Part shown: one piece after another, positions 8,156-61,000 of the stretch
Layout: every line of letters begins with the position of its first letter
Numbering within the stretch: position 1 is the stretch's first letter
DNA from: Zygnema cylindricum
Taxonomy: Eukaryota; Streptophyta; Zygnematophyceae; Zygnematales; Zygnemataceae
DNA length: 64,000 bases
Direction: 5' to 3'
Assembly (NCBI GenBank): GCA_037447655.1
Contig: JBBHKE010000475.1
Span: 62,001 to 126,000, forward strand
Notes under the pieces: generated by a model
Seen by the model: the letters and a program-made list of their open reading frames with translations, nothing else
Database searches by the model: none
What the model was told of the DNA's origin: nothing
Made by a program: the position numbers and the translations under genes

Positions 8156-16757
<8,602 letters not shown>

Positions 16758-17310
16758 GGTTTTTTTAGTGCGTTTTTGAGGAGGAAAAAGTTTGAATTTG
16801 CGATAAGAGTGAGAAAGGAATAAAATCTGCGCAGAAGTTGTTTGAGGTTTGCCAGAAGAGATGGGTGGAAGAGAAGGAGGCGAGGGAGATGACGTCAGCC
16901 ATGAGCTCATGCAGAAAAAAAATGGAGATGACAAGTGCGGACAAGATAACAAACGAAGAAAAACCTAGGAAAATAAAAAAAAAAGGAATAAAGTGAAAAC
17001 GTTTAGTCAAAGAAGAAGAAGAAGTGCGTAAACACTACAACATGCTGGAAGAGTCCAGTTAGGAGGAGAAACAGATGATCATGGTGACACGGTTTCTTTT
17101 TGACTTTTGGTGAATGCATAGTATTTGAGACATTTGAAGCCTTTATCTAAAAGTGCGGATATTTCAGACGGAAGTCGCACAGAATCCAGATATCGGGGAG
17201 AAATTTTGCTATTGTTAAGATTGCGTGCGACTATTTTCGTGCGGCCGTATGAAATTCCCACTACGATACGGCACAGTACGACACACCAGTGAAGTACAGT
17301 TCAGTACAGT
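16758..17310. other. Upstream region of the AAA ATPase gene
   Basis: This is the probable 5' leader and promoter of the minus-strand AAA ATPase gene. An in-frame ATG exists upstream at 16952 that would add 65 residues rich in S, P and F. I regard this as leader sequence because conservation begins at 16757. No confident TATA box was identified. Confidence 0.4.
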
Positions 17311-22090: not shown

Positions 22091-23850
22091 AACTTAAAAG
22101 GAGAAATCTTTGTCGACCTAGAACCCTTGTTTGCTGAGTTTGGTTATCTTAGTTCGACTTTTCACATTATCAGTTTTTTAATTAGGTTCATTTGTTTGTT
22201 TCTTTTTGCGTTTAGTTTATGAGGCATATGGATTGAATCTTCTATTGCAAGAACTCATTTTGAATAATGAAAAATTCCTTTTGAAGAATGAAAAATATTG
22301 TTAAACAGTGGGGCTTAATCAGACATGTATCTGCTTCATATTTCCATACTTTTAAAATTGTCTTTTGGAATAGTTAAATATTACAAATTACATATTACTC
22401 TGAACATTGTACAAATATGATTGACATTGTTGGACATTTGCTCATTTATTCCTTCAAATTTATTAAACATTAGTGAATATTGCATGGCATTCGCCAACAT
22501 TGCGACACATTGAGTGACAATTGTGCAATTTTTGTATATTTCCCCGCATTTCTTTGCATAGGACATTGTTGTGGAAATTGCCCGATAACTTTAGACATTG
22601 TTTGCACATTTTCTAGACATTTCCTTTTGTTATCAAAATTGTTCCAATTTTAGGTGACATTGCCGATTTTTGCATATTCTATAATTGAACTTCTCAATTT
22701 TCCAAACATGATTTCCGCAATTTCCGAAAACTAATATCCGCATTTTTCAAAGATTGATCTTTGATGATTACATTACTCGAGTTTTGCAACTTTTGGAAAT
22801 TGATTTCAACAATTTTTAAAACTATCGAATCTTGAATCTTGAATTTTTGGATTGCGCACTAATTTAATTTTTTGATTATTTTTGTGTTTTTGGTAATCTT
22901 ATCTGGCTTTACGAATCGATCGAATCTCGCTCTCTATAGAGGATTTGAGCCGGGATAAAGAATTTGAATCTACATTTTTGAAAGACTCTAGTTGTATCGA
23001 TCAACCACGGTTCATATTTGATAGTCACCGGATTGTCAAATGTTTTTTGTAAGTATCTTTAATACATATCCAAACTGTTAATGTTGATGTTGGTGCAAAA
23101 CATTGACGATAAAAACCTTTTGATAAAATAAACGACTCCGGTAGTCACTCTTGCCCGTTCTTTTCCGTGTTTGAAAATACTTTGATAGGGCTAACCGACT
23201 ATCAGTAAATCTACACCCCCTGAATCTAAATTGTGTTGTGAAGTAATCAAGTCATTATTTTGTGTGAGGCGATAGTGAGATTTGGAAATAGCGAACACAA
23301 GGAGTTGGAGAGTTTATTATCTTTGAAGCTCCAAGAGTCGAAATTTGCTTGGTGTCCGAGCAAAAGATGAAAATTCCACGCCCCAATAATTTTTAATGTG
23401 GTGGTCATTTATCAATAACGTTTTTTAGTGATATTGGAAGATAATGAAACCAGGGTTAATCTTGGCAGTTCTAGTGTGAAATGAACAACCTCTTGAGGAA
23501 GTGTTGTCAAAATTTGGCCAAAAACAAAATTTTGAATTCTGGTTTTTGTTTTAGATCCTTTTGTCTCTAAAGCCAATGTCTTTGCATCTATCAAAATAGT
23601 GAAAACTTGTTCACGAAGTTGTCGTGAAAAAGTAGCTACCCCCAATATCCGTTTTTGGGATAAATCGGTGCAATTTCGATGTGTTTTTCCTCCGTTTCCA
23701 CGACAAATAGAGAAGAATAAATGGGAGACATATTGTTTGCGTAATCATGGTTGTAGTTGATCGCTCATGAAAACACGGTGAGTGGTCGAAGCTGGTAAAT
23801 CTCGAATACAATTTTGCTCTATAAAAAAATCCACCAATGCTCCCATTGAT
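22091..23850. other. AT-rich repeat-derived DNA
   Basis: No gene. 22380-22720 holds many loosely periodic acattg words. The segment around 23770-23850 (ggtaaatctcgaa... then aaatccaccaatgc) resembles 21680-21730, indicating a shared older repeat. Confidence 0.4.
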
Positions 23851-24054
23851 GTTGTCATGCATGTGACAAAGGAGATGGTAAATATGCAACACAATCAGCT
23901 GCAAGATAAAAAAAAAACAAAATAAGCAAAAAAATCATAAATATATCAGGAAACAAGTGATTTAAATCTGTATAGACAACAAGCAACAAATACACGTATC
24001 ACAAGAAAAATAAAGGTAGGGTGAGAGAGGAAGCTAAAGGCTCAGTTTATTTAT
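23851..24054 (-). repeat. LTR-like repeat, copy 1
   Basis: A segment of about 204 bp with the landmarks caaaggagatggtaaa, cacaagaaaaataaa, gtagggtgagaga and ggctcagtttatt recurs at 25167-25365 with about the same length and order. The second copy directly follows the 3' end of the gypsy pol on the minus strand, so the repeat is probably part of that family's LTR. Confidence 0.6.
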
Positions 24055-25120
24055 TAAGCCAACGGATAGCCACTAGGCTCCTTGGTCTTACAAGCGTCGA
24101 TCTAACCTATTTAACACAACACATAAACTGAAAATGTAGAAAACTGCGAACAAATCTGAGATAACCAGATTTAGCCACACACAAAACAAATAATGAAAGC
24201 CAACCCTAATCCACTATCACCTAGTGAACCACACGAGCAAACCCAAAACTGTCCAATCAGAATCCAAGGTTCAGCAACAGCTTGAAAGAGAAGGCTGAGC
24301 AGCAATCCACTTGATAGGACGAAGAAAGAAGTGAAGGGAAACCTGGTAGGCCTCGGCGTGAGCCGTGTAGATTAAATTGCAAGGCAGATTACAGAGAAAG
24401 GTGAGTGCGAGCTAGGCAGCAGAAAGCTTAATGACAATAAAAACAGTGACTAAAACTATCTTGACAATTTTAGAAGAAAAATAATGAAAACAAAGGTCAA
24501 ATCTTCCAAAAGAACTCTTGTACTTTGAAATTGTGAGCACAGAATTCACCTTAAATTCACTAAGTACAAAGTCTACAGCTGAGCGTCTAACCTATTGTAA
24601 ATACATGCGTTATATGTAGTCGTCTGCGCCTAGTTTGGATTCTGGCCAATAGGCGACCGGAATCGTATGCTTTACGTTACAAAATCTACCCCCCTAATGA
24701 TAAAAACCCTTTCGACGCTACATGTGAACGCGTGAGACCTCCAAGGGTCCACGACTTAATATAGACCGATCGCGTCGCCGTGTGTAGTCAGAATCTGGTT
24801 CGTCCGTTTGCCTGCATCATTTGTGGCCGTATATGCGCGTTCGTCTTGACATACTTTCAAGTCGACGTTTCGGTTCTCAAATAGTACGGATGACAACTCA
24901 AATTGGTTTGCGGAAATTCCGGCGTCTAACGAATAGGCGTACGGACTTCAATATGTTCGCGGGTTCCACGGCGTCTAACGATTAGCGTACAAAATCTAAT
25001 CTGTCTGCGTGTTTTACGACGTCAACAAAAATCTGTACAGCCTTGTAGCCACCGAAACATACCAAAATACAAGTTAGTGTGGCGTCAATTTTTACGAACC
25101 GTTTCTATACAATTTAAATG
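24055..25120. repeat. Dispersed repeat family shared with about 47080-47960
   Basis: Several landmarks occur in the same order here and at about 47080-47960: gatagccactaggct versus aggtagccactatgct, gccgtgtagattaaa versus gccgtgtggattaaa, and cctccaagggtccacgactt versus cctacaagggttcacgactt. No coding domain is visible. An LTR fragment of an unassigned element is plausible. Confidence 0.5.
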
Positions 25121-25166
25121 CGGTTAAATGTGGTTAATTGCAGCCGACATCATACGGCATGACAGC

Positions 25167-25365
25167 TGTCGTGCATATGACAAAAGAGATGGTAAACATA
25201 CAACAATGTCAGCAAGATAAAGAATAAAAAAATAAGCAAGAAAGTCATGAACATATAAGGAAATAAGTGAAATAAATTTGTATAGAAAGCAAGCAACAAA
25301 TATAAGTATCACAAGAAAAATAAAAGTAGGGTGAGAGAAAAAGCTAGAAGGTTCAGTTTATTCCC
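25167..25365 (-). repeat. LTR-like repeat, copy 2 (3' end of the gypsy relic)
   Basis: It directly follows the purine-rich aggtgggga tract beyond the PHD-like finger on the minus strand, as a 3' LTR would. It is similar to 23851-24054. I could not fix the TG...CA ends, so the LTR assignment is inference from position. Confidence 0.55.
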
Positions 25366-25376
25366 CACCTAGCTCT

Positions 25377-25760
25377 TTAGCTTGTTGAAAAGCTGGCCAA
25401 TACGACTGGTAACTCTCGGCAGCCGTAACAAAACCAATGGCCGTTTGGAACCGCTGTTAATAGAAAAACCAAACACTCTATGGGAAATCCCTGGTTGCAA
25501 TAGGCACATAGAATCATATAATTTTCTCTGTCATCCCGGTTGCAAAGTGTGCATTTTGTTGCCTCAGTGATAGACATACGCAAAAGGTCTATGTCCATGT
25601 CCGTAATAAGACGTAATCTCCCACCTAGTAAGGCTACGATAGACATATGCAAAAGGTCTATGTCCATGTCCGTAATAACACGTAATCTCCCACCCAGTAA
25701 GTCTTCTGCTGTGGCCAGTAGCTGTCGATATATGTTGTGGCAAAACGCAGAGTATCTCAA
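25377..25760 (-). pseudogene. PHD-like finger at the C-terminal end of gypsy pol
   Basis: The C-terminal half has the PHD spacing CTLC, then CAYC, GFPIEC, and finally WFCYGC, with the usual acidic and tryptophan neighbours. The canonical His before the last Cys pair is replaced: GFP in place of GFH. Upstream is a 23-residue in-frame tandem duplication (DNA 25569-25637 and 25638-25706, 69-bp unit) containing ITDMDIDLL. PHD fingers bind histone H3 tails. In a retroelement this could replace a chromodomain as a chromatin-targeting module; that role is inference. The host element is dead, so this copy is not functional. Confidence 0.7.
25569..25706. repeat. 69-bp tandem duplication
   Basis: Two adjacent copies of a 69-bp unit beginning gatagacata differ at a few positions. 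The length is divisible by three, so the duplication adds 23 codons without changing the minus-strand frame. Confidence 0.85.
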
Positions 25761-25831
25761 TGTTGGGCGATGTGCAGGTTGTCAAAAGCCATGGGCATCT
25801 TTCGTGCAAAAAGCAGCGCCCTCTTAGTAAG

Positions 25832-26627
25832 TTATTCCAAAAAAACCCTGTTAAATAGTAAGGGAAGCGGGAAGCTTGCAGCTTTTTGGATATTCCTATC
25901 CAACAACGGTTGACGCCCAAACAAGACATAGTATAGACTCAAATTAGCAAGGCTTGCTTGTACAAACATTCGATATCCCATGGTAATGTAACCGAGGGAC
26001 TCGTCCGATACTGTAATATGTTTCTCCAAGCAGTGCATGCGTTATAGTCGCTTTAAAGTCTGAACTGCTTGTTCTGTCTATCCATCAGCCTTTGGATGAT
26101 CTAGGCTTGTTCAATGGTGGTTTATGAGCACGTCTTCTAACATTTTTTGGAATTCTCCGCGAAGTTCAGTTCATTAAACTGTAAAGACTTCAGCCAGAGC
26201 TCCTTATCTCATAAGACATGTTCCTTAAAAGTTGCGGTAGTGAGCTTTGCAGTTTTGTGTGGTAATGCCACGACTTCAACCTATTTGCTAAAATTTTCAA
26301 TCATGAACATTATAGATTGTTTCCCCCTCCGGGATATGGGAAAAAGACTTGCTATATCGCACGACCAACGGTGAAATAACCCCTTGATGGGTAATGGTTG
26401 GAGGGCATCTACTGGTTGCTAAAAAAAGTGTGCACAAGATCACATATTGCACACTTGAGCAATACCGATGCGACATCAGATTGCATCCCAGACCACCAAT
26501 AGCGTGTGTGCAGCAAGCTTAAGGTGCGCTCGATCCTATAGTGACCAAACTCAATGTGAATTTGTTCAATCAGCAAAAGACATTCAATTGGGCGAGCCAT
26601 GTCTTTGTGACTATCGTCTGCTGACAA
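25832..26627 (-). pseudogene. Gypsy integrase remnant
   Basis: The N-terminal zinc-binding part at 26627-26409 shows HIEFGHYRIERTLSLL and CAICD, the HHCC pattern of retroelement integrases, with YWWSGMQSDV between. The C-terminal part at 26038-25832 has GYRMFVQASL and SLYYVLFGRQP, typical of the end of gypsy integrase. The catalytic core between is broken by stops. Confidence 0.8.
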
Positions 26628-27012
26628 CCGAACTATCGATCCACCTAACCAAAGATAATTTTTAGCTCATTTTTTACTCTTTTCTCCTCTTCGGATGTAG
26701 TGTCGATCGAAAATTTTGTGAGGAGAGGAAAAAAATAAGTGCTCCATCTCCCCATGGGTCTACAACAGAACGCGAGTTGGGCAACGATGCCAAGAAATGT
26801 GTAATATAAAACCCTGTTGACATTGTCTCAACGTTATCGTCTTCAAAGTCCTGCTAGACTCCGTTGTCTGTGGTCCTTGGCAAAGGATTTCGGGAAATGT
26901 TGTCTGCATTCAGACAAACTATCTCTAAAAGGTGAATAATTTCCACATTGTATTTTTGTAAAATTATTGCCCATCGCGCTATTTTTCTCGAAAACTTATC
27001 ATTCGTCATCAT

Positions 27013-28427
27013 CTAGTGTAAGGGTTGATGGTTGGTTAAGAGTGTAAATGGTTTTCCGCAAAGGTATTGACGAAGGTATTCAATACCACAAACTACCGCC
27101 AAACATTCTCCTTCATAAATATTATAATTTGACCCCGCACGATTTTTAGTTCTGCTTCCGTAAGCGAAGACGTATTCATTTCTTATAGTTTTCGTTGAGT
27201 TAAGATGGCCGCAATGCAAGCTTTCTAAAGTGTGTTTGTAGGAAAAAATGTAATTTGTGATTAAGAGGTCGGAAGATGGGAGCATTAGAAAAGGTATTCC
27301 TCAATTTCTGAAAAGCTAAAATCTGATCAAGTCTCTATACGAACTCAACTTCTTTCTTGAGCAAATCGTTCATTGGTGAAGCGATAGTGGTGACACTAAG
27401 AACAAATCTGCGATAGTACTTGGCCAATCCAAGGAAGGCCCGGAGGCTGGTACGATCAACGGGAGTCGGTAGTTTGCTGATAGCTTCGGTTTTTGCTTCA
27501 AGTGGTGTGATTCATTTAGATGAAACAAAATGTCCAAAGTAAGGCACACCTACAAAATCGAAAGTACATTTAGCTGGATAATATATTAATCTGATTTTTT
27601 TGAATTTAGTTATGACCCATTTGATATGAGCTGCGTGATCTTCAATTGTGGCAAAGGCAATATTTAAATTATCGATATAACATCGTGCAAACTTACAACC
27701 ACCTAAAACTAAATCAATTTTTTTTTGAATAACTACGGGGGGCTTGTTTAAATCCAAAAGGCATCACGCACCATTCCCAACGCCCATTACTATCCCAAAA
27801 TAAGGTTTTATAATTATCTTTCTCCTCTATTTCAATATGGTTAAACCATTGTTGCAAATCAAGAATACTGAAATATTTAGCATATCCTACATGATCAAAT
27901 ATTTCTTAGGCCAATGACATCTGATGTCGGTCTTGTACAGTTCTGGAATTGCGTTCACGGTAATCGCCGCACATTCAACAATTAGTAAAGTTTCCCTAAA
28001 CATCTTTTTTTCGAGGCATGACAGTGGGTGCTGCAAAAGTAGAGTCCGAGTAATAAATGAGGCCAACTTTCTCCAATTCAGTGTAACGTTGATCCACTAT
28101 TTCCCATTCATTTTTGAATAAGCGGTGTTTTATCTTAAAAATGGGACGATCATCTTCGAGATCTACAAACATTTTTTAAGTTGTATGGCGACCAAGATCA
28201 TTCATAGAGAAAGCGAAAACATCGATATTCCAGAGAATCACTTCGTTTAGTAAATCATGTTTAGACAAAGAAATATTAGCCCCAAATTTCCATTTAAGAG
28301 GTTTCGAACTTTTAAATGTCATCGCCTCCATGCCTTGTGCAAAAGCCAATTGTTCGTCTGCGATAAGTGTTTCACCTAAATAGTAATTGACAAGTGTCTG
28401 TGTAAACAATTTGTCCAATAATGCCAA
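27013..28427 (-). pseudogene. Gypsy reverse transcriptase and RNase H remnant
   Basis: In minus-strand order the sequence shows IDVFAFS, RPIFKIKHRLF, the RT palm words YFSILDLQQWF and MPFGLNKPP, then ARCYIDNLNIAF where YIDD is expected, and VPYFGHFVS. RNase H follows with YGSRTKN and IYEGECLAVV. The reading frame changes several times and contains stops. The catalytic second Asp has become Asn, so the enzyme would be inactive even if frames were open. Confidence 0.85.
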
Positions 28428-28728
28428 GTACGAGTGGGGAAGGTTGCAGTCTAGAGAAGAGATGTTGATGTGTGACTAGAGAGAGTAGATTGAGCAGCAA
28501 TATAGGCTGGCATGGACGATGGGATATGACGGTGATTTAAAAAAGTGTATATTGTGACATTTGGAGAAAGTGTTATAAGGGATGGAAAGAGGAAAAATTG
28601 AGAAAGTGTTCCTCTAAGGGTGATAAGAGATCCAGTATGTATGCGTTTAGAGGTTGATGATGCATCTCCCCCCCAGCTGGTTGAGACGGATGGGTTTGTG
28701 TGAAACGACCTGCTGCAATTTCGAAGCC

Positions 28729-29856
28729 TTAGACAAATGAGAGGGATTGAGGGTCCATAACACGACCTAAAAAGATGAAGCGCTGTTGTTCTGTGAGACC
28801 ATGGGTAGCCGTAGTGTTGGGAAAGAAATGCATAAGATGTTTCCGTTCTGTGGCTGTGGGCTCATCTGGGCCGCCTGTGTGAATTTTTCTGAGCATGCCG
28901 AGCCTATCGCCGAAAAAAACGTGATAGTGTGGATAAGACACTAAGGTGGAGAAAACGTTGAGTGGTTTGACTGGCAACGTTAATGTTGTAATTCGTCGTG
29001 TGATTAGGCTGATGAATTGTTTAGACTTTATGAAAAGACAGAAGTGCGGTCTGAATATGTGTAAAAAAAAATCTGACTAAAAGATTTCCTTCTCGAAGGC
29101 AACTTATATCAATCAAGTTGGTCCATTTAGATTGCACCTGATGGGCTAAAAAACCGTGACGTGACGAAGGATATCAATGATAAAAAAATGACTAAAAAGT
29201 GCATTTATCCGCTTGTAATCAGCTAACACTATAGGTCGATGATCGTTATAAGCTGCCACGTTTTCCAAAATATATCCCAATCGGCGATGTAAAGATTGCA
29301 AAAAACACATGGTACGAAGTATTTCAGAGAATAATTTAGTGCGGGGATCAGCCAAGCCGAAACCTTTGACTGCTCGTGACATGACTTGACACTCACAACC
29401 GGCAAAGAAAAGTTCGATGGTTTTTATATCAAAAAAGTGTTGATTGCCTATCAAACGAATGTAGTCTTCATAGAAGGCTGTGTGTATGTGAGCATAGGCA
29501 AATTTAGGGAAAAAATGTGGGTATTGTTTGTGTAAAAGATTACAATGATGTGTCTAGGCTTTCTGAGCTAAAGGGTTAGAGTCGACTGAGTAGTAGTGTA
29601 TGACAAGTAATCCATTACAAAGGCATAAGAGCAAAGAGGTACATATGCTTGCGAATAAATCTAAAAAAATCAAACCATCTTGATAGAGGTTGAGCTGAAT
29701 CAGTTTCCAATTAATGGGAAAAAAATCGCAAATATCTAGTGAAATGAGTGGAAGAGGTAGAACTTCCGATAAAAGAATCTGAAGTGTGTGTTTGTAAATG
29801 TGATCAAACTCGCGAGAATCAATAATAAAATCGAGATTATCGAAAAGTTCAGACAA
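28729..29856 (-). pseudogene. Cytosine-5 DNA methyltransferase domain in gypsy element
   Basis: Three well-separated blocks lie in the same minus-strand frame. Block 1 (29680-29560): LDLFASICTS then YYSVDSNPLA, motif I and II of C5 methyltransferases (S-adenosylmethionine site). Block 2 (29420-29220): FFAGCECQVMSRA, motif IV with the catalytic Cys but Glu where the Pro of PCQ is normal, then GLADPRTKLF and GYILENV (motif VI). Block 3 (28977-28729): STLVSYPHYHVF, DEPTATERKHLM and FLGRVMDPQSL, motifs IX and X. A stop follows block 1, and the segment between blocks 2 and 3 needs a frameshift. Enzymes of this family transfer a methyl group to cytosine C5. Position between protease and RT suggests it was part of the polyprotein. 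Confidence 0.85.
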
Positions 29857-30199
29857 AAAAGAACTGTCGGGAAAATTTCCTTTGCGGATAGAGAATAAAA
29901 AATTTTAAATCTCACTGAATTTTCGTAACAAGCACAGACAAATAGGGCCACATGAGCCATAATGGGTATTGGCTGTCGTGTTGAAATTAATGGGAGACAG
30001 GTTTGCTTCTCCGGATAATTGGTAAAACGGTAAAAAAATGTCTGATCGTTTATGTCAACGCCAATTTTTTGATTAACCATCTTTTATAATCTGTCATAAT
30101 TCACATATTCTAAACGTTTATGTCGTTAATCACAATTATTGATTACACTTAACTACACAACATCATTATCATTTTGATTTGCAAAACTCAGCCGTTACA

Positions 30200-30660
30200 A
30201 ATTGTTTCCTACAGCAAATCAGTCTGTAACTATTTTCCCATTTTTAATCACTATTTTCTTCCTATTGTCAAATATAGTTTTAAAACCTTTGTTTTCTACC
30301 ACTGACATAGAGAAAAAAATTATTTTAAATAGTGGTATATGGAACACATCTTCCAGGACCCTTTTCACAATTTTTCCATCTACATTCAACATAAGTTACA
30401 CTCTCCCTTTTCCTTTGGACTCAACGAAAGTATCCTCACTGAAATAATTTTTGATGGGAGAAGTAGATTTAATACTTTCAAAAAGGTAGCAATTGCAATA
30501 CATATGTGGTGATGCACCAGAGTCCATTATCCATTCGTCCTCTTCCACGCCTTCTGTTGCTTGTGCCATCGCAAAGTATTTTTTTTTTTGTTGTTGATGG
30601 GAAAACTACTCACGTCCTCCTCCTGAAATTTGTTTGAGGAGGTTCTTGGTCGTACACTTG
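30200..30660 (-). mobile_element. Ty1/copia protease fragment inside the gypsy relic
   Basis: Minus-strand translation gives EDEWIMDSGASPHMYCN, the copia gag/protease junction with the catalytic DSGA, followed by KGKGRVYLMLNVDGK-like sequence. This is a copia and not a gypsy protease. The gypsy element already has its own protease remnant at 31192-30730, so the copia piece is probably a nested insertion or a recombinant fragment. Confidence 0.7.
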
Positions 30661-40367: not shown

Positions 40368-41336
40368 TGTAACAGGATTTCCTACCTCTCTGAAAATCCC
40401 ATTGCTACAAACAATTTCAACCACACATTCCACACATTGGAAAATACACATCCACATTGGAAAACACTCACATAAGGATAAACTTTAAATTAGAAGAAAC
40501 TTCTGTCCACATAAAATTAGCTTGGTCTCTTGCCCTCGTGGCTCAACCCTTCAAATTAAAGTGTTTCCTCTACTCTCCACTCTTAATAATTATATCTCTT
40601 AACTACTAAAACACTATTTAGTTAGTAAGAGATTTCAATGCAAAAATGCCTTTTCTCCAATTTGGTATTAATCGCTCAGGACCAAAATCAGCCGGAATTT
40701 CCACAAACTTTTCCAAAGGAAAAGATGTCTACTCTCCTCTTACACTTCACTATTTATCCATCATCGCCTTGGACTCGCCAGGCCAGAGTCAAAGCTCTGT
40801 TTTAACAGGCTTTTACCTGGGCCAATCAATGATCAGCAAAGACTCAGACTTACCAATGCAAAAACGTGCGAAATCTCTTACTAACTACTTAGCACTTTAC
40901 TAACCAATCAAACGTTATGTTTCACTACGTAACATTTACGTGCAAAAGTGCGCGCCAAACGAAACGCGACTTTGCACGATCGTGCGTAACAAATTTCGTA
41001 CGCGAAACTTTCTACGAAATTTTTTTAAGTGAAAGTGACGTTTCGTACTAAAATTTGTACGAAACGAACCACCGTGCATACTAAACGTTTCGTTAGAACT
41101 TTATGAAACGTACATGCGTAATTTCGGTACTAACTTGACCCTTAACCCGTTTCAATGATACCCATTTTGTTATTTAGACCCTACGCTGTCACTTAAATAC
41201 ACTTATCGCTATAAATTTTAAAATATAACTCCAAATAGCGTGATTCTTTCGCGGACTTCAACCAAATTTAGTACTCTATAATCATAATACCTAAATACCC
41301 CTTTATAAACAAGTTCGATCAGCTATTACTGTTACA
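40368..41336 (-). repeat. 3' LTR of the pol-deleted gypsy element
   Basis: 969 bp, beginning TGTAACAGGATTTCC and ending ATTACTGTTACA on the plus strand. It includes a cluster of ACGAAA/TTTCGT motifs at about 40920-41110, many in inverted pairs. Landmarks match 44658-45625 throughout, with scattered substitutions. Confidence 0.92.
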
Positions 41337-41355
41337 TCATCCCCTCCTTATTTTT
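41337..41355 (-). promoter_or_regulatory. Polypurine tract of the pol-deleted gypsy element
   Basis: The minus strand reads aataaggaggggatga immediately before the 3' LTR. A purine run in this position primes plus-strand DNA synthesis in LTR retrotransposons. Confidence 0.75.
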
Positions 41356-41384
41356 AACTGACCTCAGTTAAACACCTTTAATTC

Positions 41385-41585
41385 TCAAGACGGGACTTCT
41401 ATATTATTATCCCTCCAATACCTCTGTAAAAACTCAGAATTTTTATCCTCTAAAGTCAACTCATCCTCAGGCCTTCCTAGATAATGCACTTGCCAGAATA
41501 TAGTATCACCAACCTTGAATCTTTGACCAACCCAATCTATTACCCATCTGTGGACTTCAGGTTCTATAATTATTGAGGGATCCAA
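41385..41585 (-). pseudogene. Chromodomain fragment of gypsy pol
   Basis: The frame contains IIIEPEVHRWVIDW, FKVGDTIFWQVHYLGRPEDE and LTLEDKNSEFLQRYW. This fits the end of a chromovirus pol, where a chromodomain follows integrase and guides insertion to modified chromatin. Here it is joined directly to the N-terminal RT region at about 41590-41600, deleting the catalytic parts of pol. Confidence 0.7.
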
Positions 41586-41862
41586 TGCTCAAAGAAACTG
41601 TGTTTATAAATTCCTGTGACAAGAGGATTACATCCAGGTTCAAGGTTAATAATATGTTCTACATCTCGGAAAGGTGGCCTCTCGAGGGTAAGTCAATTGG
41701 GAAAACATCTCTAAATTCAAATATCAAATTTTTAGAAGCAGCATCAGATGTACTAATGTCAGTTACAAAATCAGATTTTTTGTTTTTCGAAAGTTTTAGT
41801 GGTGTCTGATTTAGCGATGACATCAATGTTAATGTTTCCCCCCCCCCCCTTTCATCAGTAAC

Positions 41863-42516
41863 TTACTCAGTTACTAATAACAAGAAAGCATGATTTGTTT
41901 TATCTTTTAAGTGCTTTTTAAATTGTTTGGCAGATATCAAACCTTCCACTCCCATTCTGGTTATGTTATTTATATGATTCCTATGCAATTTCTTAGGAGA
42001 TAATGCTTGCAAAACCTTCCAACCGTTTTCAGACCTCACTTTCAAGGTGTTAATTTCCCAATTAATTTGAGGTTTGTGTTCAGTTAACCAAGGCTTTCCC
42101 AAAATTAGTTCTTCACTTTCCAAATTTATTATTTCACACACAACTCTCATTTTATGACCCTGGATATCAACTTCTATCGTGTCACTTTGTAAGTCTAATG
42201 TGGACTTATTACCATTTGCCATTTGAACATGTAAAGGCTTTTCCCTTATGACAGTAGGAATTTTATTTTCCTCTACAAACTTATGTGAAATAAAATTATG
42301 TGTGGCACCTGAATCAACCATTAGTTTCAACGGTTTTCTTTCCACTAATGACTCGAATCTAATCAAACTGTGTCTGGTGTCATCATTACTTAACATTCCT
42401 AACATAGGTCTGTTGTTGAGAATTTCATCATAAGGATTCTTTAAACTATGCAGTGTAGTGAGAATCTTAATAAATTCAGCTATTCTAACTTTTCCATTCA
42501 TTAATTTGCCCTCCAA
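41863..42516 (-). CDS. Gypsy aspartic protease
   Basis: A 217-codon open frame holds LMVDSGATHNFISH, the active-site loop of a retropepsin with catalytic Asp intact, followed by HVQMANG and ELILGKPWL, the conserved second half. The enzyme would cleave the Gag-Pol polyprotein as a dimer. The frame closes with a stop at 41863, just before a C-rich run on the plus strand; further downstream, RT N-terminal words occur in other frames. The N-terminal 60 residues look like a gag-pol linker. Confidence 0.8.
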   Translation of the reverse strand: MEGKLMNGKVRIAEFIKILTTLHSLKNPYDEILNNRPMLGMLSNDDTRHSLIRFESLVERKPLKLMVDSGATHNFISHKFVEENKIPTVIREKPLHVQMANGNKSTLDLQSDTIEVDIQGHKMRVVCEIINLESEELILGKPWLTEHKPQINWEINTLKVRSENGWKVLQALSPKKLHRNHINNITRMGVEGLISAKQFKKHLKDKTNHAFLLLVTE

Positions 42517-42566
42517 AGTTAACTCTTTAACTTCTGGATCAGGTTGACTTAACTGAGGACTTTCAG

Positions 42567-43889
42567 TTAGTCTTTTCCATTTCCCACCTCTTGGGCTTCC
42601 TGCTCAGCTAGGTATAATGGGATATCCTCTTGGAGACCTTCATTTACATCGACTAATTTGAGAGAACCTTTATCTGTACAGTCTTTAGCGTAATGATTTG
42701 GACCTCCGCATTTGAAACAAGTGACTTTCTTTTTGGGATTTATGCAATCCCTACTAAAATATCCCATCCTCTCCACATTTATAACAGTTAATCTTTTTCA
42801 GTTGTGCACACTCAAATGCTCTATGACCCTTTTTTTGACAAATAGTGCATGTGGGGATGGTAAGGTTAGGCTTCTGGGCATTAATGTTTGGTTTAGGATT
42901 TTTAATGTACCCCCCTCTATTGTTAAATTTATTTCCTGCATTAACACTATGTCCACCCCTTTGATTTCCCCTAAAGATATTTTGCCTATTTACCAGACCA
43001 ACATTCAGACCCTTTTCAACAAATTCTTCCTCATCCCACTCTAGTACTTCATTCAAATTACCCATGAGTGATCGAGTTTCCCCATTATACCCCAACTGAT
43101 CCTCTAATTCCAATGACTTATCTTGTAATTCTTTCAAATTATTAAATTTTTGATGTTTTAGTTCGGATTTCAGTATAGGATTCAAATAGTTCAAGAAATG
43201 TAATTTAGCCATTTCATCAGTCAAACCTATGACATGAATACTAGATGAGTCAAATTCCACAATATAATCCTTCACAGATCCAGTCTGCTTACAATTCAGC
43301 CACTTTTCTTCCATTCTGGATTTAAAAGTGACAAACAAAAAACGCGATTTGATCGCGGTTTTAAGAGTTTCCCAATCAACATTATCAGGAATCAATTTAG
43401 AACTTCTCTGAGTATAATACCAAATCTGAGAATCACCTTTCAGACAGTTAACAGCAAAAGAAGTGTAATCATCACGATCGCAATTTCTAGACTCCAAATA
43501 ATATTCCATTTGAAAAATCCAAGCATCCAACTCATCAATCCTCTTACCATCAAACGATGGTACCTCACTAATAGATAATTTCAGATCCCTTATCTTCTTA
43601 GGTCTATCATGATCATCCTCCCTAAAACTGGCATTCCGTTACTACTCTCACCCTTTTGGTCATTCATATCATTCTTGGTCTAAATTAAGTTAATAAGTTC
43701 ATCTAATTTCTCATTTGAAACATTTCCATTTTCTTTGACAACTTTCAATTCACTTTTCAATTCGGAAATGGTTTCATCCTTAGCGGCAGCATGATTATTA
43801 AATCTTTTGACCAATTTCACAGTCCTCTTCTTCAACACATTCAACGCATTCTCCATTTCACGTTTCCATGCAGAATTTGCCATTATCAC
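42567..43889 (-). pseudogene. Gypsy gag with zinc knuckles, one frameshift
   Basis: Pieces on the minus strand: 43889-43680, a charged helical N-terminal frame ending in a stop; 43530-42754, the capsid-like gag domain (MDAWIFQMEYY, SQIWYY, KDYIVEFDS) and first knuckle CTICQKKGHRAFEC; 42776-42567, another frame with CFKCGGPNHYAKDC. The second knuckle, starting CYKCGE, is split by a frameshift at about 42760-42776. Gag forms the virus-like particle and binds RNA. The main domain is uninterrupted, suggesting recent activity or selection. Confidence 0.82.
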
Positions 43890-44639
43890 ACAATGAAATC
43901 AAGCAAAAGAAAGATAGAGTATAATTTCCCAATGAAATTTGATGGAGAGTTGAAGTCCTCAGATTGCTCCAATCCAAGACTTCTTCTGCTTAACAAATCC
44001 TTTGAAAAGATCAAAATCTGAGAAATTAAAAAGACATTGACAGTAAGTTAGAATAAATTCAAATATTCAATTCCCAACATTGAAACAGAAGGTAAAAATT
44101 TCCCCACATATTTTGTGATAGCAAAATTGAAAGCTTTTAAAGGTAAGATTTAACCATAAATTATGCAACAGCAAAATTGAAATCAATCAAAAGTAATAAT
44201 TTAGGGTTTGAAAAGTTTTGAGTCATTTCTAGACTCCTTTGCTCTTGAAGAAGTAAAGTACTCCACTTTTTTTCTCCTCGATTAGCAAATTTCCCAGTTC
44301 CCACTTCATCAGGATCTTTTACTCTCTAATCCTCACATCCTCACCCTTCATGGCTTCAAGCCCTCCCTCTAGACATGAATCATTGCTTAGAGAAGGCAAG
44401 TTTGTTTGGCCTCTAGGTAATTGGAGTGAGCTTCAGCGGTGGCTACACTGCCCACCCCGCTTTAGTCTTGAGGACCTAAGCACGCCCCACATCTAACCAG
44501 CGGCCACTGGCAATGTGGTCATTTAGTTTCCCTCCAATCCCCTACCACTCACATTGTGGTTCCACCAACCCGGGTCAGAGCACCCTCACCGGTCACGGAA
44601 GTCGATTTTCGGGTGAGCAAGCTTCTCTTTGGCTTTTAA

Positions 44640-44655
44640 CCAAGCTTTGTTACCA
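44640..44655 (-). promoter_or_regulatory. Primer-binding site (initiator tRNA-Met-like)
   Basis: Two bases inside the 5' LTR the minus strand reads TGGTAACAAAGCTTGG. It resembles the TGGTATCAGAGC sequence complementary to initiator tRNA-Met, the usual primer of plant LTR retrotransposons, with a few mismatches. Confidence 0.7.
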
Positions 44656-44657
44656 TA

Positions 44658-45625
44658 TGTAATAGGATTTCCTACCTCTCTGAAAATCCCATTATTTCAA
44701 TCAATTTCAACCACACATTCCACACATTGGAAAATACACATCCACATTGGAAGACACTCACATAAGGATAAACTTTAAATTAGAAGAAGCTTTTGTCCAC
44801 ATAACATTAGCTTAGTCTCTTGCCCTCGTGGCTCAACCCTTCTTATTAAAGTGTTTTCCACTACTCTCCAATCTTAATAATTTTATCTCTTAACTACCAA
44901 AACATTATTTAGTTAGTAAGAGATTTCAATGCAAAATGTCTTGTCTCCAATTTGGTATTAATCGCTCAGGACCAAGATCAGCCGAAATTTCCACAAACTT
45001 TTCCAAAACAAAAGATGTCTACTCTCCTCTTACACTTCACTATTTATCCATCATCGCCGTGGACTCGCCAGGCCTGAGTCAAAGCTTCGTTTTAACAGGC
45101 TTTTACCTGGGCCAATCATTGATCAGCAAGGACTCAGAATGACCCATGCAAAAACGTGCGAAATCTCTTACTAACTACTTAGCACTTTACTAACCAATCA
45201 AACGTTACGTTTCACTACGTAACATTTACGTCCAAAAGTGTGCGCCAAACGAAACGCGACTTCGCACGATCGTGCGTAACAAATTTCGCACGCGAAACTT
45301 CCTACGAAATTCCTTTAAGTGAAAGTGACGTTTCGTACTAAAATTTGTACGAAACGAACCACCGTGCATACTAATCGTTTCGTTAGAACTTTATAAAACG
45401 TACACGCGTAATTTTCGGTACTAATTTGACCCTTAACCCGTTTAATTATACCCACTTGTTATTTAGACCCCACGCTGTCACCTAAATACACCCATCGCTA
45501 TAACTTTTAAAATATAACTCCAAATAGCGTGATTCTTTCGCGGACTTCTACCAAATTTAGTACTCTATAATCATAATACCTAAATACCCCTTTATAAACA
45601 AGTTCGATTAGCTATTACTGTTACA
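44658..45625 (-). repeat. 5' LTR of the pol-deleted gypsy element
   Basis: 968 bp, beginning TGTAATAGGATTTCC and ending ATTACTGTTACA on the plus strand; partner of 40368-41336. It carries the promoter of the element in minus orientation, but no TATA box could be assigned with confidence. Confidence 0.92.
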
Positions 45626-46132
45626 TTAAGTGTCAAAAGTTTGTGGTGTTGACATTTATTTTTGTCATGTACCTTCATATTCCCACGATTTGAGCATCAA
45701 ATTGATTAGTGTGGCGACCATTCATAATATACCAAACAATCTACAAAATAAATGCCCCGATACGATGCGGTATGACATAGTTAGAGATTCATTCACTACT
45801 CTGGTGAACACTCAAGGTGAAATAGAGTTGTTCAAATCAAATCGAGTTTTGAAAAGTTCCCCACAATAGAATTCGTGCCTCAATCCACTCGGAGAGTGGT
45901 TTAGAAAAGTGCCTCTGCACGCGACTCCACGTGACTCTCTGTACAGTGCAGATTTTTGCCTCCAAATGCTAAAAAACTTGGTGAAAAAAGATGAAAAATA
46001 CAAGATAATGAAAAGATAAATAGCAAAAGTAAGTTAAAATTAGGTAATTGTGCCGCTCAAACCTTAGATATGTAGCAAAACCTATGTTTGCCACAATCCG
46101 GATTCAAAAAAAAACCCTAATTTGCAACACTA

Positions 46133-46830
46133 GACCAAACAAACATCTGCCTTTATTCATAAAGACAATCTATCTATTTGAATTTACTAAAATTGTATTG
46201 CTAACTCTTTATAACAACAATCTATAAATCACTATAAAAGTATTATGTGTTTGTCTTTCTCTACGATTTTTAAACTCTGATACACGTGCCTAGTGACTTG
46301 TACTATATGAGTCTGGTGTTATTCTACTCTGGCGTCGGAAGTCTGTGGGGTTGATATTGAGATTTATCTCTGACATGTACCTTCACATTCCCACTATTCT
46401 GGCACCAAACCAAATTAGTGTGGCGACCTTTTAAAATATGCAAAATAATCTTCAAAATTAGTGCACTGATATGATGCGGCATGACATACTTACACACACC
46501 TTAAGTGTTGTAGTGAACACTAAGGGCACCAACGGTGAACTGGACTTGTTCGAATCAAGTCAGGTTTTACAAAGCTCCCGGAAATAGAATCCGCATTTTA
46601 ATCCGCTCCGCGAGTGGTTTACAAAAGTGCCTCCGTACGCGACTCTTTGTACAGTGCACATTTTCTGCCTCGAAATGTTAAGGCAACAGAAAAAAAAAAT
46701 GAAAAATACAAGAAATAGAAAATATTAATTGCAAAGGTAAGTTGGAATTAGGTAATGTTGTCGGTCAAACCTTAAACATGTAGTAAAACCTATGATTGCT
46801 ACAATCCGGACACAACAGTAAAACCCAATC
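46133..46830. repeat. Older repeat unit, uninterrupted copy 2
   Basis: Head-to-tail with copy 1 (40073-46130), sharing its landmarks in order from ctttattcataaagac to acctatgattgctacaatccgg. The immediate tandem arrangement shows the duplication; only copy 1 received the gypsy insertion. Confidence 0.65.
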
Positions 46831-48215
46831 CTATAGCCAACTTTGACTTTGACCCTAGTAGTGACAACAATCCTTAATTGTGACAGCAAACCCTGATTTT
46901 GTCAAAAAAACCTTAATCTCAAATCGCCCAAATGCCTAGATGTGCAACAAAAAAATAGAGTTGTAACAAGCTAGAAAAAAAAAATTCAAAGAAATAAATT
47001 GAAAAAAATAACAAATAAGAGATATTTTCTTTTAAAAATAAAAGCTTATAAATTTTGAGTTTTTCGAACAAAAATACTTAGCCGCGAGGTAGCCACTATG
47101 CTTTCGGGTTTTCAACATATCCTTTAAAAAATTATCTCAAAAAACAACAAAGCAAAAAGATAATTCCAATAAAAATAAAAAAAATCGGATTTCGCCATAA
47201 AAAATCGCTATTTCGAATAAACCAATATAAACAAAACAAACACAATCACTTACACCTTTTGATTGCTCGAAGAACGCACGGCTCGATCGAATTGCCTTTC
47301 CCAATATCTCCAATCTACCGCACCAAAAGATGACACAAGCGTTAAGGGAAACCTTTTAGACTTAGCCTTGGCCGTGTGGATTAAAGACGTAAGCAGGAAA
47401 ACAAAGCAAAAAACATCCGTACACAGTCTAGCCTCTGCACCTTTCTTGGAAGAAATACGTCAGCAATTGGTGAAAAAAAGCGAGAAAAGAACTTCGCCAA
47501 AAGAATTTTTTTGTTTGAAAATCAAAATAGTCTAAGTCTGAGATTTAGCCTATGTATGGGTTGGGTTAAGCCTACGCGAAACTAAACTAAATCGAAGCTA
47601 CTTCACATGACTAGGCTATTTACAATGTTGGCAAATAGACAGCCAACATCTTTTGCCGTAACATCTTTTGCCTTACACCTAAGAAAATCTATAGTCAAAG
47701 GGTAAAAACTCTTTCTATCTACTTCTGCGCGTAAACCTACAAGGGTTCACGACTTAAATATGCACCTATACGAAAGCGCCAACGAAACGTCACTTGTACA
47801 TGTACTTCATGTAACACCCAACCGATATTCGCGACAGTCTTTAGTATTGTGTACATATAAGACAAAACACACACAAACACATGGAATCGTTTCAATTCAA
47901 TCAAATTTGTACACGAATCGCGCACACGTCAAATATGAGTGAACAGACAATATCTAATATTATTAACCAACGGTGAGTGCGATAAATTGGTCATGTAAAC
48001 AGTCGATACAATGCGACTTTACACAGTAAGAGCTGGAGGAGCAATTTGAACACTTGGGCCAAATTAAGTACTTGGCCCAACAATAACTAAGCCGTTATCA
48101 AACATGCTAACAAAAGCAAACCCAGTCTATATTAAACATGGTAGCAAAAACAAACCCAAAGAGGAATTCCTATCAGACTACACCAGTATACTAGATTAAT
48201 ACAAGAAGATATGTA
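46831..48215. other. Repeat-derived region, no supported gene
   Basis: From about 47080 to 47960 it shares ordered landmarks with 24055-25120. The 90-codon frame at 47263-47535 falls inside this repeat and shows no domain. The rest is AT-rich. Confidence 0.45.
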
Positions 48216-58058: not shown

Positions 58059-61000
58059 ATGGGTGTGAAAGAGCCATGGAGGTGTTATAAGATTTTGGAC
58101 CTGTGTGAAGATAGTCAAAATGGAAGTTTCATAGAGAAAGTGGTTCTCCAAAAGGAAGCTGTCGCAAAAATATGCAACGATTTCATCGCAAACAGGTAAA
58201 TACGTGTTTTGCTTCTTGATTTTTTTTTCTCCTTTTATTTCTTCAAGCATTTGTGCTTTGAAATTCAGCCTTCTTACTTGTTCTAGTCGTTTTCTGAAAT
58301 AATTTGAAATAATCTGAAGCAATAAGTAACAAAGAATTATTTTTTGCTTACCTTTCTATAAAATTGACATTGCTGCTGTTTTCTTTTGGGGATCCATTTT
58401 TTTCTATTGTTTTCTGTTTAGTTGTAACAAAGACGCTTCAAAAATACATTTCGATAAATTGGATGCGTTTTCGCACAAATGCTATGGAATTTTTGGACAT
58501 AGATCCTCAATTTTGAGATTTTTAGTTGATAATGAGATCCTCGCAAAAGTTTCAACAGACTCGGAAAAAAAAATGACAGAATTTCCGAATGGAACTGGTT
58601 TATACGCTTTCATGACATCTCAAAATTTCAAAAAAAATCCCAAAATGATATCAGAAAATTCGGGGATTGACAACAATGGTTCCACAACAATTTTGGTGCT
58701 TTGGCCACAAGAAGATGCATTCGAAAACATTTGTCCTTCGAATAAGACGACAACATTTGTCAGATATCTTACTTCCTTATGTGATACAGTAAGTTTGAAA
58801 ATATTTTCGAGTAGCAGTCTTTTCCCTTGCAACGTGGTAGTTTTATTACGTTTGTGTATAGAGTAATGTTTTGTTATTTGCCACATTGTATGTTTATAAA
58901 TATCTTAAAAGCACTTATAGCATTTGTCTTTCTTAATTTAAAAATCTTGCTTCAAGAACGACACGCATCTTTCAATTTTGACCTAGTAAATTGCATTTTC
59001 CAACCTTGATATTTGTGATTTAAAAGATGTCCCTCATCTATAATTCATAAAAAGAACAAGCAATTCGGAACTGGGGTGATGAACAAGTTCCTGTTGATGT
59101 TTTTGCTCCATTTTGCAATATCCACATCTGTAAAAAAGAGGATTTTGTTAGATTTTTGTATACAAAATGCGTAAATATACACATATATGTATGCTTTTTT
59201 GCTTCTTTTTTTTGTTTTTGTGTGTATACACTTGAATGGTTTAATTGTAGTTTTCATGACTTTTTTGACTACGCAGGTTCAAATTTGCTTGGACAAAAAT
59301 TGTGCCGAAAACTTTCCACGTGACCGGAAACTGGATAATTTTTCACGATTCTATGAATACAATGCGGAACGGAAAACAGTACAGGAGGAGTTTTCTATGT
59401 TCGAGGGTTTTCAAATATCGTTATGTGAGACTACAGAGAAGAAACCCCATTTTCAAATGTTAATTGAAGAGTCTGGAGGAGCATTTTTTGTTACTGGATT
59501 TCCATGTAAACAACAAACCACTTTTAAAACGTTCTATCAAAAACTTGATTGTAAAGGAAAATATTCTGGGGAGATTCAGGTGATCTTTCTCTCTCCCTCC
59601 CCTTCCCCTTCCTCTCCCTCCCCTTCTCCCTCTCCCTCTCCCTATCTCTCTCCCTCTCCCCCTCTCTCTCTCCCCCCCTCTCTCTCTCTCTCTCTTTCGC
59701 TCGCTCTTGCTCTTGTTCTTGCTATCGCTCTTTCTCTGGCTCTCACTCTCTCACTGGCTGTCGACCTCGTTGTTGCTCGCCTACTCTCTCTCTCTCTCTC
59801 GCTCCTTGTCCCGTCTCCCCTATCACAATGATATATTTCTGTATTAATCTCAAAATTTATCGGGGATTTTGTCATTGAAATTTAATTTTCAGACTGACAG
59901 TAGACTTTTTCTTATTATCTTTTTAACCAGAATTTGGCAAATCGTGTAAGAATTAAAGTGGACCAAATGTCAAAAGAATGCCGCAAAATATTTTTTACCC
60001 ACTTTTCGGACGACTGTCGGAAATGTATAGAAGAATTGGACGAAGAAATTAAAACATTGGATATTGAGCGAGATGAAAAGTGTTCAAATTTCTATTCTGG
60101 AATTGAAAAATCAAATCCGAGTCGAAAGGATGTCAAAATATATTTTCAGCAAAAAATGAGTAAATTGATTGAGCCAATCTGGCCGGATTTATGCGTTTCT
60201 ATGTTACCGGATGTCCCTGAAAATGAATTAAATGAGAGGGAAAAGCGATTATTCTCCGGGTCGAATTCCAACATCGACGAGGATTTTTATAAAAATTGCT
60301 GGTTTAAGAACGAATTTAGCTTTCAAGAACGACTTTGTTTGTGCTTTGCATACTTTTTAGATTCTTCAGAGGTGAAAATTTCACTAAGAATGGTTAGAAA
60401 ATGTGTTCGTTCCTCGGTTGACGAGCTTCAGGAACTATCTCAACAAACATCCTACTTTTTCTTTAAGAAATATTCTGAAGAGAAGTGGAGTTCTTTGATG
60501 GAAAAAGTGATTAGGATTCTGGAAAGTGATTTGCTTCGAAAAGAAATTTTGCGAAAAAATGATGTTCGTACAAATGCTCTTCTCAGGTTTTTGCATTTGG
60601 TGGTGAATGAAGAATTGGAAAAAATGGTGAGCTGTTTTTTCACAAACCCGGAATACAATGTTCCTGAAAAGAAAAGGAAATTCAAAGGAGAAATGGACGG
60701 AGCTTATCAATCAAAAAAGTCAATTTTAATGGAAAAGAAACTCGAAGAAGCTCATCGAACAGCGTTTGGTGTTGATATGGGAGCCGCTGTTTTCGAAAAT
60801 AATTCAACAAATTTAAAACTTTCACTGATTTTGAGATCATGTAAGATGGATAACAACCGTATTATATTGGAAGGGGATATGGAAGAAGTTGCGGAGAGAA
60901 TGGTAAAATACGAGGTCAAACGACTTGAAATTTCACAAGATGAAGAATACAAAATCGAGGAGATTCCATTGTTAAATATTCACCCACGGCCAACACACAA

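Follow-up and report, generated by a model that had tools for sequence, protein, structure and literature searches.

Retrotransposons that encode cytosine methyltransferases were the subject of a primary report by de Mendoza et al. in 2018 (PMC5890265), as an earlier note on the present DNA had stated, and the available text of a later paper (PMC12344493) cites them as known. Two of the elements in that primary report, in the passages available, come closest to the locus analyzed here. KnitGypsy-Dnmt3 of Klebsormidium nitens carries a Dnmt3-related, intronless methyltransferase within a gypsy Pol open reading frame (ORF), combines gypsy domains with a DIRS-like layout of repeats (A-coding-B-A-B; Fig. 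4 legend), and is described as being under purifying selection with conserved key residues. SymbioDIRS-Dnmt3 of dinoflagellates likewise has Dnmt3 in Pol and A-coding-B-A-B repeats, together with a tyrosine recombinase. In the yeast assay of that report, the Symbiodinium DIRS enzymes were active and the outcome for the K. nitens enzyme was inconclusive.

The locus lies in a 64,000-nucleotide stretch of Zygnema cylindricum DNA (the window). It represents a kind of element already known from K. nitens since 2018, of which the two families found in this genome, A and B, are a variant. The features listed above for KnitGypsy-Dnmt3 are shared by the present elements, with the exception that the P of PCQ is replaced by E in family A. 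They differ in their host, in the ECQ that motif IV of one family shows, and in a PHD finger that ends the polyprotein, the word PHD occurring 0 times in the main text of PMC5890265. The 4-bp target duplications and palindromic junction described below are also absent from the available text passages of that paper. With SymbioDIRS-Dnmt3 they share the place of the enzyme and the repeat order, but they have a DDE integrase and target duplications where that element has its tyrosine recombinase. DIRS membership was rejected based on the integrase core (PF00665) in loci L013-L017 and L020, the lack of a tyrosine recombinase among the Pfam matches, and the 4-bp duplications. Chromovirus membership was rejected as well, with a PHD finger at the C-terminus of the integrase and no chromodomain among the Pfam matches at E 0.1. 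A PHD finger also occurs in REM1, a green-algal gypsy element of Chlamydomonas, where a separate inverse ORF encodes it together with a chromodomain; REM1 is not known to carry a methyltransferase. Among the matches listed in open-access literature searches for gypsy elements with split direct repeats and for PHD fingers with integrases, no title or abstract held the combination described here.

The earlier note, made from the letters of the window, had placed a C5-methyltransferase on the minus strand at 28729-29856. This similarity was confirmed by a profile search, in which DNA_methylase (PF00145) matched the minus-strand ORF at 29146-29553 with an E value of 3.4e-05 (23.9 bits, cut-off 22). 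The two ORFs flanking it, searched singly, gave no Pfam match, a read-through of the whole methyltransferase frame scored 20.8 bits with PF00145, below the cut-off, and the same read-through had no match in the PDB by sequence. A tblastn search against phages returned 66 records; E values ranged from 1e-3 to 7e-3 in the best 10 of 66, seven of which are annotated as methyltransferases or methylases, two as hypothetical, and one not at all. A hidden Markov model (HMM) of three phage enzymes, which is not fully independent because these enzymes were chosen as matching the window, found a single significant place in the six-frame translation, 29149-29553 (1.3e-12; next best 0.2). With one relative per family added to the model, the other blocks were recovered at 28732-29076 (1.3e-11) and 29557-29904 (6e-07), along with a fourth block in a different frame at 29024-29173 (0.0019), and the best match in the reversed window was 0.048. 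The three blocks described in the earlier note do share one minus-strand frame, but the stretch at ∼29167-28967, which includes motif VIII, reads in another, so that the methyltransferase frame is broken twice; four of the seven stops fall in this stretch. The C5-methyltransferase domain in the window is real, and it is broken by frame changes and stops. Separately, the model with relatives weakly matched 23081-23251 on the minus strand (0.0076), perhaps a further remnant.

The window copy corresponds to residues 810-2393 of the polyprotein of a relative, L013, followed by repeats B1, A2 and B2 (Table 1). From 29871 to 28669 it is 50.9% identical to L013 residues 874-1271. The remnant spans 30062-23853, and only the portion past the protease is left. 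The gypsy RT, RNase H and integrase that had been noted downstream of the methyltransferase were all found again as Pfam matches, that of the integrase to its zinc domain, but the upstream ORFs read as gag and protease showed no match to this family, with nothing upstream of 30062 matching its gag-protease at 1e-3. Repeats B1 and B2 are 84% alike, as compared to ∼99.5% in the copies on contigs C1344, C829 and C1915. The window copy is old and broken and cannot work. A Ty1/copia fragment in the same orientation meets the remnant at a sharp joint at 30063, for which a template switch, a deletion or a nested insertion are candidate origins. Upstream of this fragment lie further ORFs at 33153-30704.

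Table 1 Parts of the methyltransferase-bearing element in the window and the fragment adjoining it
Feature	Coordinates	Strand	Evidence or remark
Ty1/copia fragment adjoining the element, outside the methyltransferase family	30063..30533	-	Pol_BBD 5.7e-17; weak gag_pre-integrs (0.094) ending at the joint
Polyprotein region separating protease from methyltransferase, at the 5' limit of the remnant	29701..30062	-	tblastn (L013, L014, L016, L020 proteins) stops at 30062
DNMT3-like C5-methyltransferase domain, broken (stops; frame change)	28669..29700	-	Pfam 3.4e-05, HMM control
Reverse transcriptase (RT), broken; YIDN for YIDD	27512..28400	-	RVT_1 1.5e-06 and 0.0013, below curated cut-off; 64-69% identity to L013
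RNase H of reverse transcriptase	27013..27300	-	RT_RNaseH 2.3e-13
Integrase: zinc domain (26409-26666) and core	25661..26666	-	Integrase_H2C2 1.4e-13; 47-70% identity to L013
PHD finger ending the polyprotein; histidine lost in the window copy	25419..25553	-	PHD 1.2e-07
Repeat B1	25167..25362	-	84% alike to B2, 200 bases
Palindromic junction GACAGCTGTC, B1/A2	25161..25170	-	
Repeat A2	24052..25166	-	Between B1 and B2; begins TGTCATGCCG like relatives
Repeat B2, with the element's right end (ATGCATGACA)	23853..24051	-	

Relatives are abundant in the same genome. Two merged lists, one from Pfam DNA_methylase (123 scored matches among 782 candidates) and one from the window protein (108 matches; 107 candidates scored among 1569), gave at least 206 distinct places with a DNA_methylase-type domain in the 353-Mb assembly, the window copy included. 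As only part of the candidates was scored, methyltransferase copies may exceed 206, and some of the places are no element. One of these, L011 1501-1749 (+), is a host-type methyltransferase exon, whose best PDB chains (9mvy, 7ubu and 4fsx; ∼8.8e-28) we take to be maize chromomethylase, which makes a green host likely; the next DNMT1-labelled chain scores 6.6e-12. Twenty relative loci were taken, and the proteins of six were scanned with Pfam. L013 contains a single 2395-amino acid ORF with, in order, a zinc knuckle (0.0086) and an aspartic protease (0.012), both below cut-offs, the methyltransferase (2e-11), RT, RNase H, integrase zinc domain, integrase core and PHD finger. The earlier note had looked to intact relatives for all domains in one ORF; this arrangement holds in L013, but in L014, L016 and L020 the same order is spread over two or more frames. 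L015 and L017 represent family B, in which the methyltransferase lies near the start of an ORF of ∼1520 amino acids and the PHD finger match, at 21.5 and 17.5 bits, falls short of the cut-off of 24. The two families share ∼42% identity in the methyltransferase and ∼52% in the RT, and YIDD is present in the RT of the relatives.

The methyltransferase is part of the Ty3/gypsy element, as had been proposed, since relatives carry the domain between protease and RT and the methyltransferase and RT trees agree. That an unrelated methyltransferase pseudogene was instead dropped into a gypsy element has next to no probability: a foreign copia fragment does adjoin the element, but relatives hold the domain at the identical place in one ORF and the two trees are congruent. 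This explanation was rejected, as the relatives with the same domain placement already refute it. Among 92 scored RT places (4495 candidates), a methyltransferase lies no more than 3 kb upstream of at least 39, and for 53 there is none among the matches listed upstream. In L033 a gag-protease lies immediately before the RT and a methyltransferase is absent, and the stretch upstream of the second RT of L029 has none either.

Several other features were observed in the window. A second gypsy element at 40368-45626 (minus strand) has ordinary 970-base terminal repeats, 94% alike, with gag and protease; an RT was not found between its terminal repeats, and its relative in L033 runs on into an RT without a methyltransferase. 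A 1241-amino acid open frame at 59904-63629 (plus strand) has a URGCP/GBP-like GTPase match (2.6e-11, below cut-off), and an exon-like ORF at 16347-16964 (minus strand) has a weak MIT-domain match (2.6e-04, below cut-off). An Rfam search of the window gave no matches.

For both families, the best PDB match of the methyltransferase is DNMT3A (3e-13 for B; 1.1e-10 for A), ahead of DNMT3C, DNMT3B, M.HhaI and, for family B, DRM2. Judged by this best match alone, the enzyme appears to be of the Dnmt3 class. Most copies retain motifs I, IV, VI, VIII and X. With repeats of one place counted once, motif IV reads ECQ in all 15 distinct family-A copies and PCQ in all nine family-B copies; the catalytic cysteine is retained in 24 of 24, and ENV/ENI and AHR.R in nearly all. 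The methyltransferase has dN/dS values of 0.10-0.42 in family A (from the 7 of 28 pairs unsaturated at synonymous sites) and of 0.12-0.39 in family B (6 pairs, 4 distinct copies). The corresponding range for the RT is 0.04-0.31 in unsaturated pairs, with the exception of one near-identical pair at 1.13 (dS 0.003). The methyltransferase is under purifying selection. The replacement of P by E in every distinct family-A copy, and the absence of CpG depletion from family-A coding DNA described below, would suit an enzyme that is no longer catalytic and is retained for DNA binding or structure, but the conservation of the catalytic cysteine, ENV/ENI and AHR.R in nearly all copies and dN/dS values well below 1 make such a loss of activity unlikely.

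In trees of the methyltransferase and the RT, the main groups match, and the split between families A and B is fully supported in both. These trees contain the 20 of 23 methyltransferase rows that also have an RT and omit seven loci: duplicates of one place, one near-identical copy, loci that belong to neither family, and L012, which is a distinct copy. Because L010 and L017 are the same place, the 20 rows represent 19 copies, and the five family-B rows in the dN/dS analysis represent four. The methyltransferase co-diverges with the RT. When the RT tree was extended by three additional gypsy RTs from this genome (that of L033 and the second RT of L029, with no upstream methyltransferase seen, and the second RT of L024, whose upstream region lies beyond the locus edge), families A and B together were set apart at 100/100. 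A single gain of the methyltransferase before the two families parted fits this tree.

The ends of the element are unusual for a gypsy retrotransposon in their split direct repeats. The A-coding-B-A-B layout was found on C1344, C829, C1915, C2602, C1811, C449 and, with an extra B, in the family-B copy on C1374, and was not seen on C2577, C783 or C544; the window copy retains B1-A2-B2 only. Relatives begin with TGTC and end with GACA. Among the seven copies with both ends, a 4-bp target duplication is exact in four (C1344, TTGG; C829, AAGG; C1915, CCCT; C2602, CCCC), matches at three of four bases in C1811 and C449, and is without a match in C1374. C2577 and C783 showed neither an A2-B2 part nor a target duplication, and neither a left end for C1407 nor repeats in C544 could be found. 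All nine B1/A2 junctions found are the palindrome GACAGCTGTC, those of the window and of family B included; four of the nine were located via that string, each where the repeats place it. The two-base spacer GC of this junction is missing from the outer ends. Scattered matches to the start or interior of the A repeat also occur elsewhere in the window on the minus strand (45768-45777, 46477-46486 and 47663-47769), probably as remnants of related elements.

Target duplications and an encoded integrase domain together indicate that a DDE integrase inserts the element. We infer that the RNA would lack the outer ends, and that the inner B-GC-A block could serve as the template that restores them, yielding a cDNA circle that has a single GACA-GC-TGTC junction. 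In the palindrome, the integrase would then cut both strands after CA, producing two ends that each have a recessed CA-3' and that share a 5' overhang of 2 nt. Joining of these recessed ends to the target would take place at a stagger of 4 bp, and the GC would be lost in the process. The methyltransferase, which is produced within the same polyprotein as the RT, may methylate a new DNA copy either ahead of insertion or at that step; the PHD finger, for its part, may tether the complex to the tails of histone H3. Methylation of its own cDNA or new insertions, with blending into or evasion of host silencing as the putative purpose, had been suggested in the earlier note. Gypsy elements are known to employ linear cDNA, and there is a sizeable chance that an ordinary linear molecule integrates here too, the split repeats then being the product of an atypical path of reverse transcription in which no circle takes part. 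A G-rich tract just before B1 in the four copies examined, the place of a plus-strand primer, agrees with such a path, but priming at this tract would start the cDNA at B, whereas inserted copies start at A, and the GC spacer is missing from the outer ends. The TGG start of the usual primer site was not present after A1 in the three copies examined. The window holds an old, broken copy of a Ty3/gypsy family in which a DNMT3-like enzyme lies between protease and RT, and in which a PHD finger follows a DDE integrase. On balance we consider this reading, with the circle, self-methylation and tethering that such a family would use, fairly probable.

The base composition of the copies bears on the role of methylation. 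The observed/expected (o/e) ratio of CpG in coding DNA is 0.81-0.99 in family A (window copy, 0.91), 0.64-0.65 in family B and 0.55 in a gypsy element without a methyltransferase; the value for the genome window is 0.89. As family-A coding DNA is not CpG-poor, any long-lasting CG methylation of this family has left no strong trace. In L018, L022, L023, L031, L037 and L039, 7 of 8 pieces of the family-A A repeats (from 5 of 6 copies) are rich in CpG, with o/e at 1.36-2.10; the exception is C1344 at 0.87. Between the A1 and A2 repeats of six copies, whose alignments are imperfect owing to tandem repeats within A, C/T differences affect 75 of 1127 CG sites as compared to 83 of 1916 CHH sites (Fisher p = 0.0066), a weak signal, and 27 of 526 CHG sites, not clearly above CHH (p = 0.41). 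In coding stretches, the rates of CG and CHG differences exceed those of CHH in 12 of 13 pairs, a comparison confounded by codon position; the thirteenth pair has two such differences in total.

The lack of CpG depletion in family-A coding DNA could also mean that the methyltransferase acts chiefly on host chromatin or RNA, or slows the element, rather than modifying its own cDNA, and the available text of PMC5890265 names RNA methylation (for its LINE family) and slower transposition as options. We regard these roles as possible though not probable, since the best PDB match is a DNA enzyme, DNMT3A, and the domain keeps a conserved place beside the RT in a single polyprotein. The PHD finger is closest to those of PHF12 and KDM5/Lid, followed by BAZ2B, WSTF and PHF21A. 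Several of these, as does the ADD finger of DNMT3A, read histone H3 that lacks methylation at K4, a likeness that provides a possible lead. By analogy with DNMT3A, which couples an H3 reader to a methyltransferase, one may speculate, doubtful as the idea is, that this gypsy lineage acquired a DNMT3-like writer and a PHD reader and altered how it replicates, with a palindrome-junction circle cut on both strands by its DDE integrase and self-methylation preceding histone-guided insertion. If so, the CpG-rich A repeats would be a natural target of self-methylation.

An element bearing an enzyme of the kind that silences such elements is a puzzle. The Z. cylindricum genome supplies open-frame copies in two families, a putative reader of chromatin in the PHD finger, and a natural variant of the catalytic motif (ECQ versus PCQ), all of which are testable. 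From the structure of the ends one would predict that a DDE integrase acts on a circular intermediate, which is testable as well. Intact sister copies with unusual end repeats ease the testing of this kind of element, which is known but little understood.
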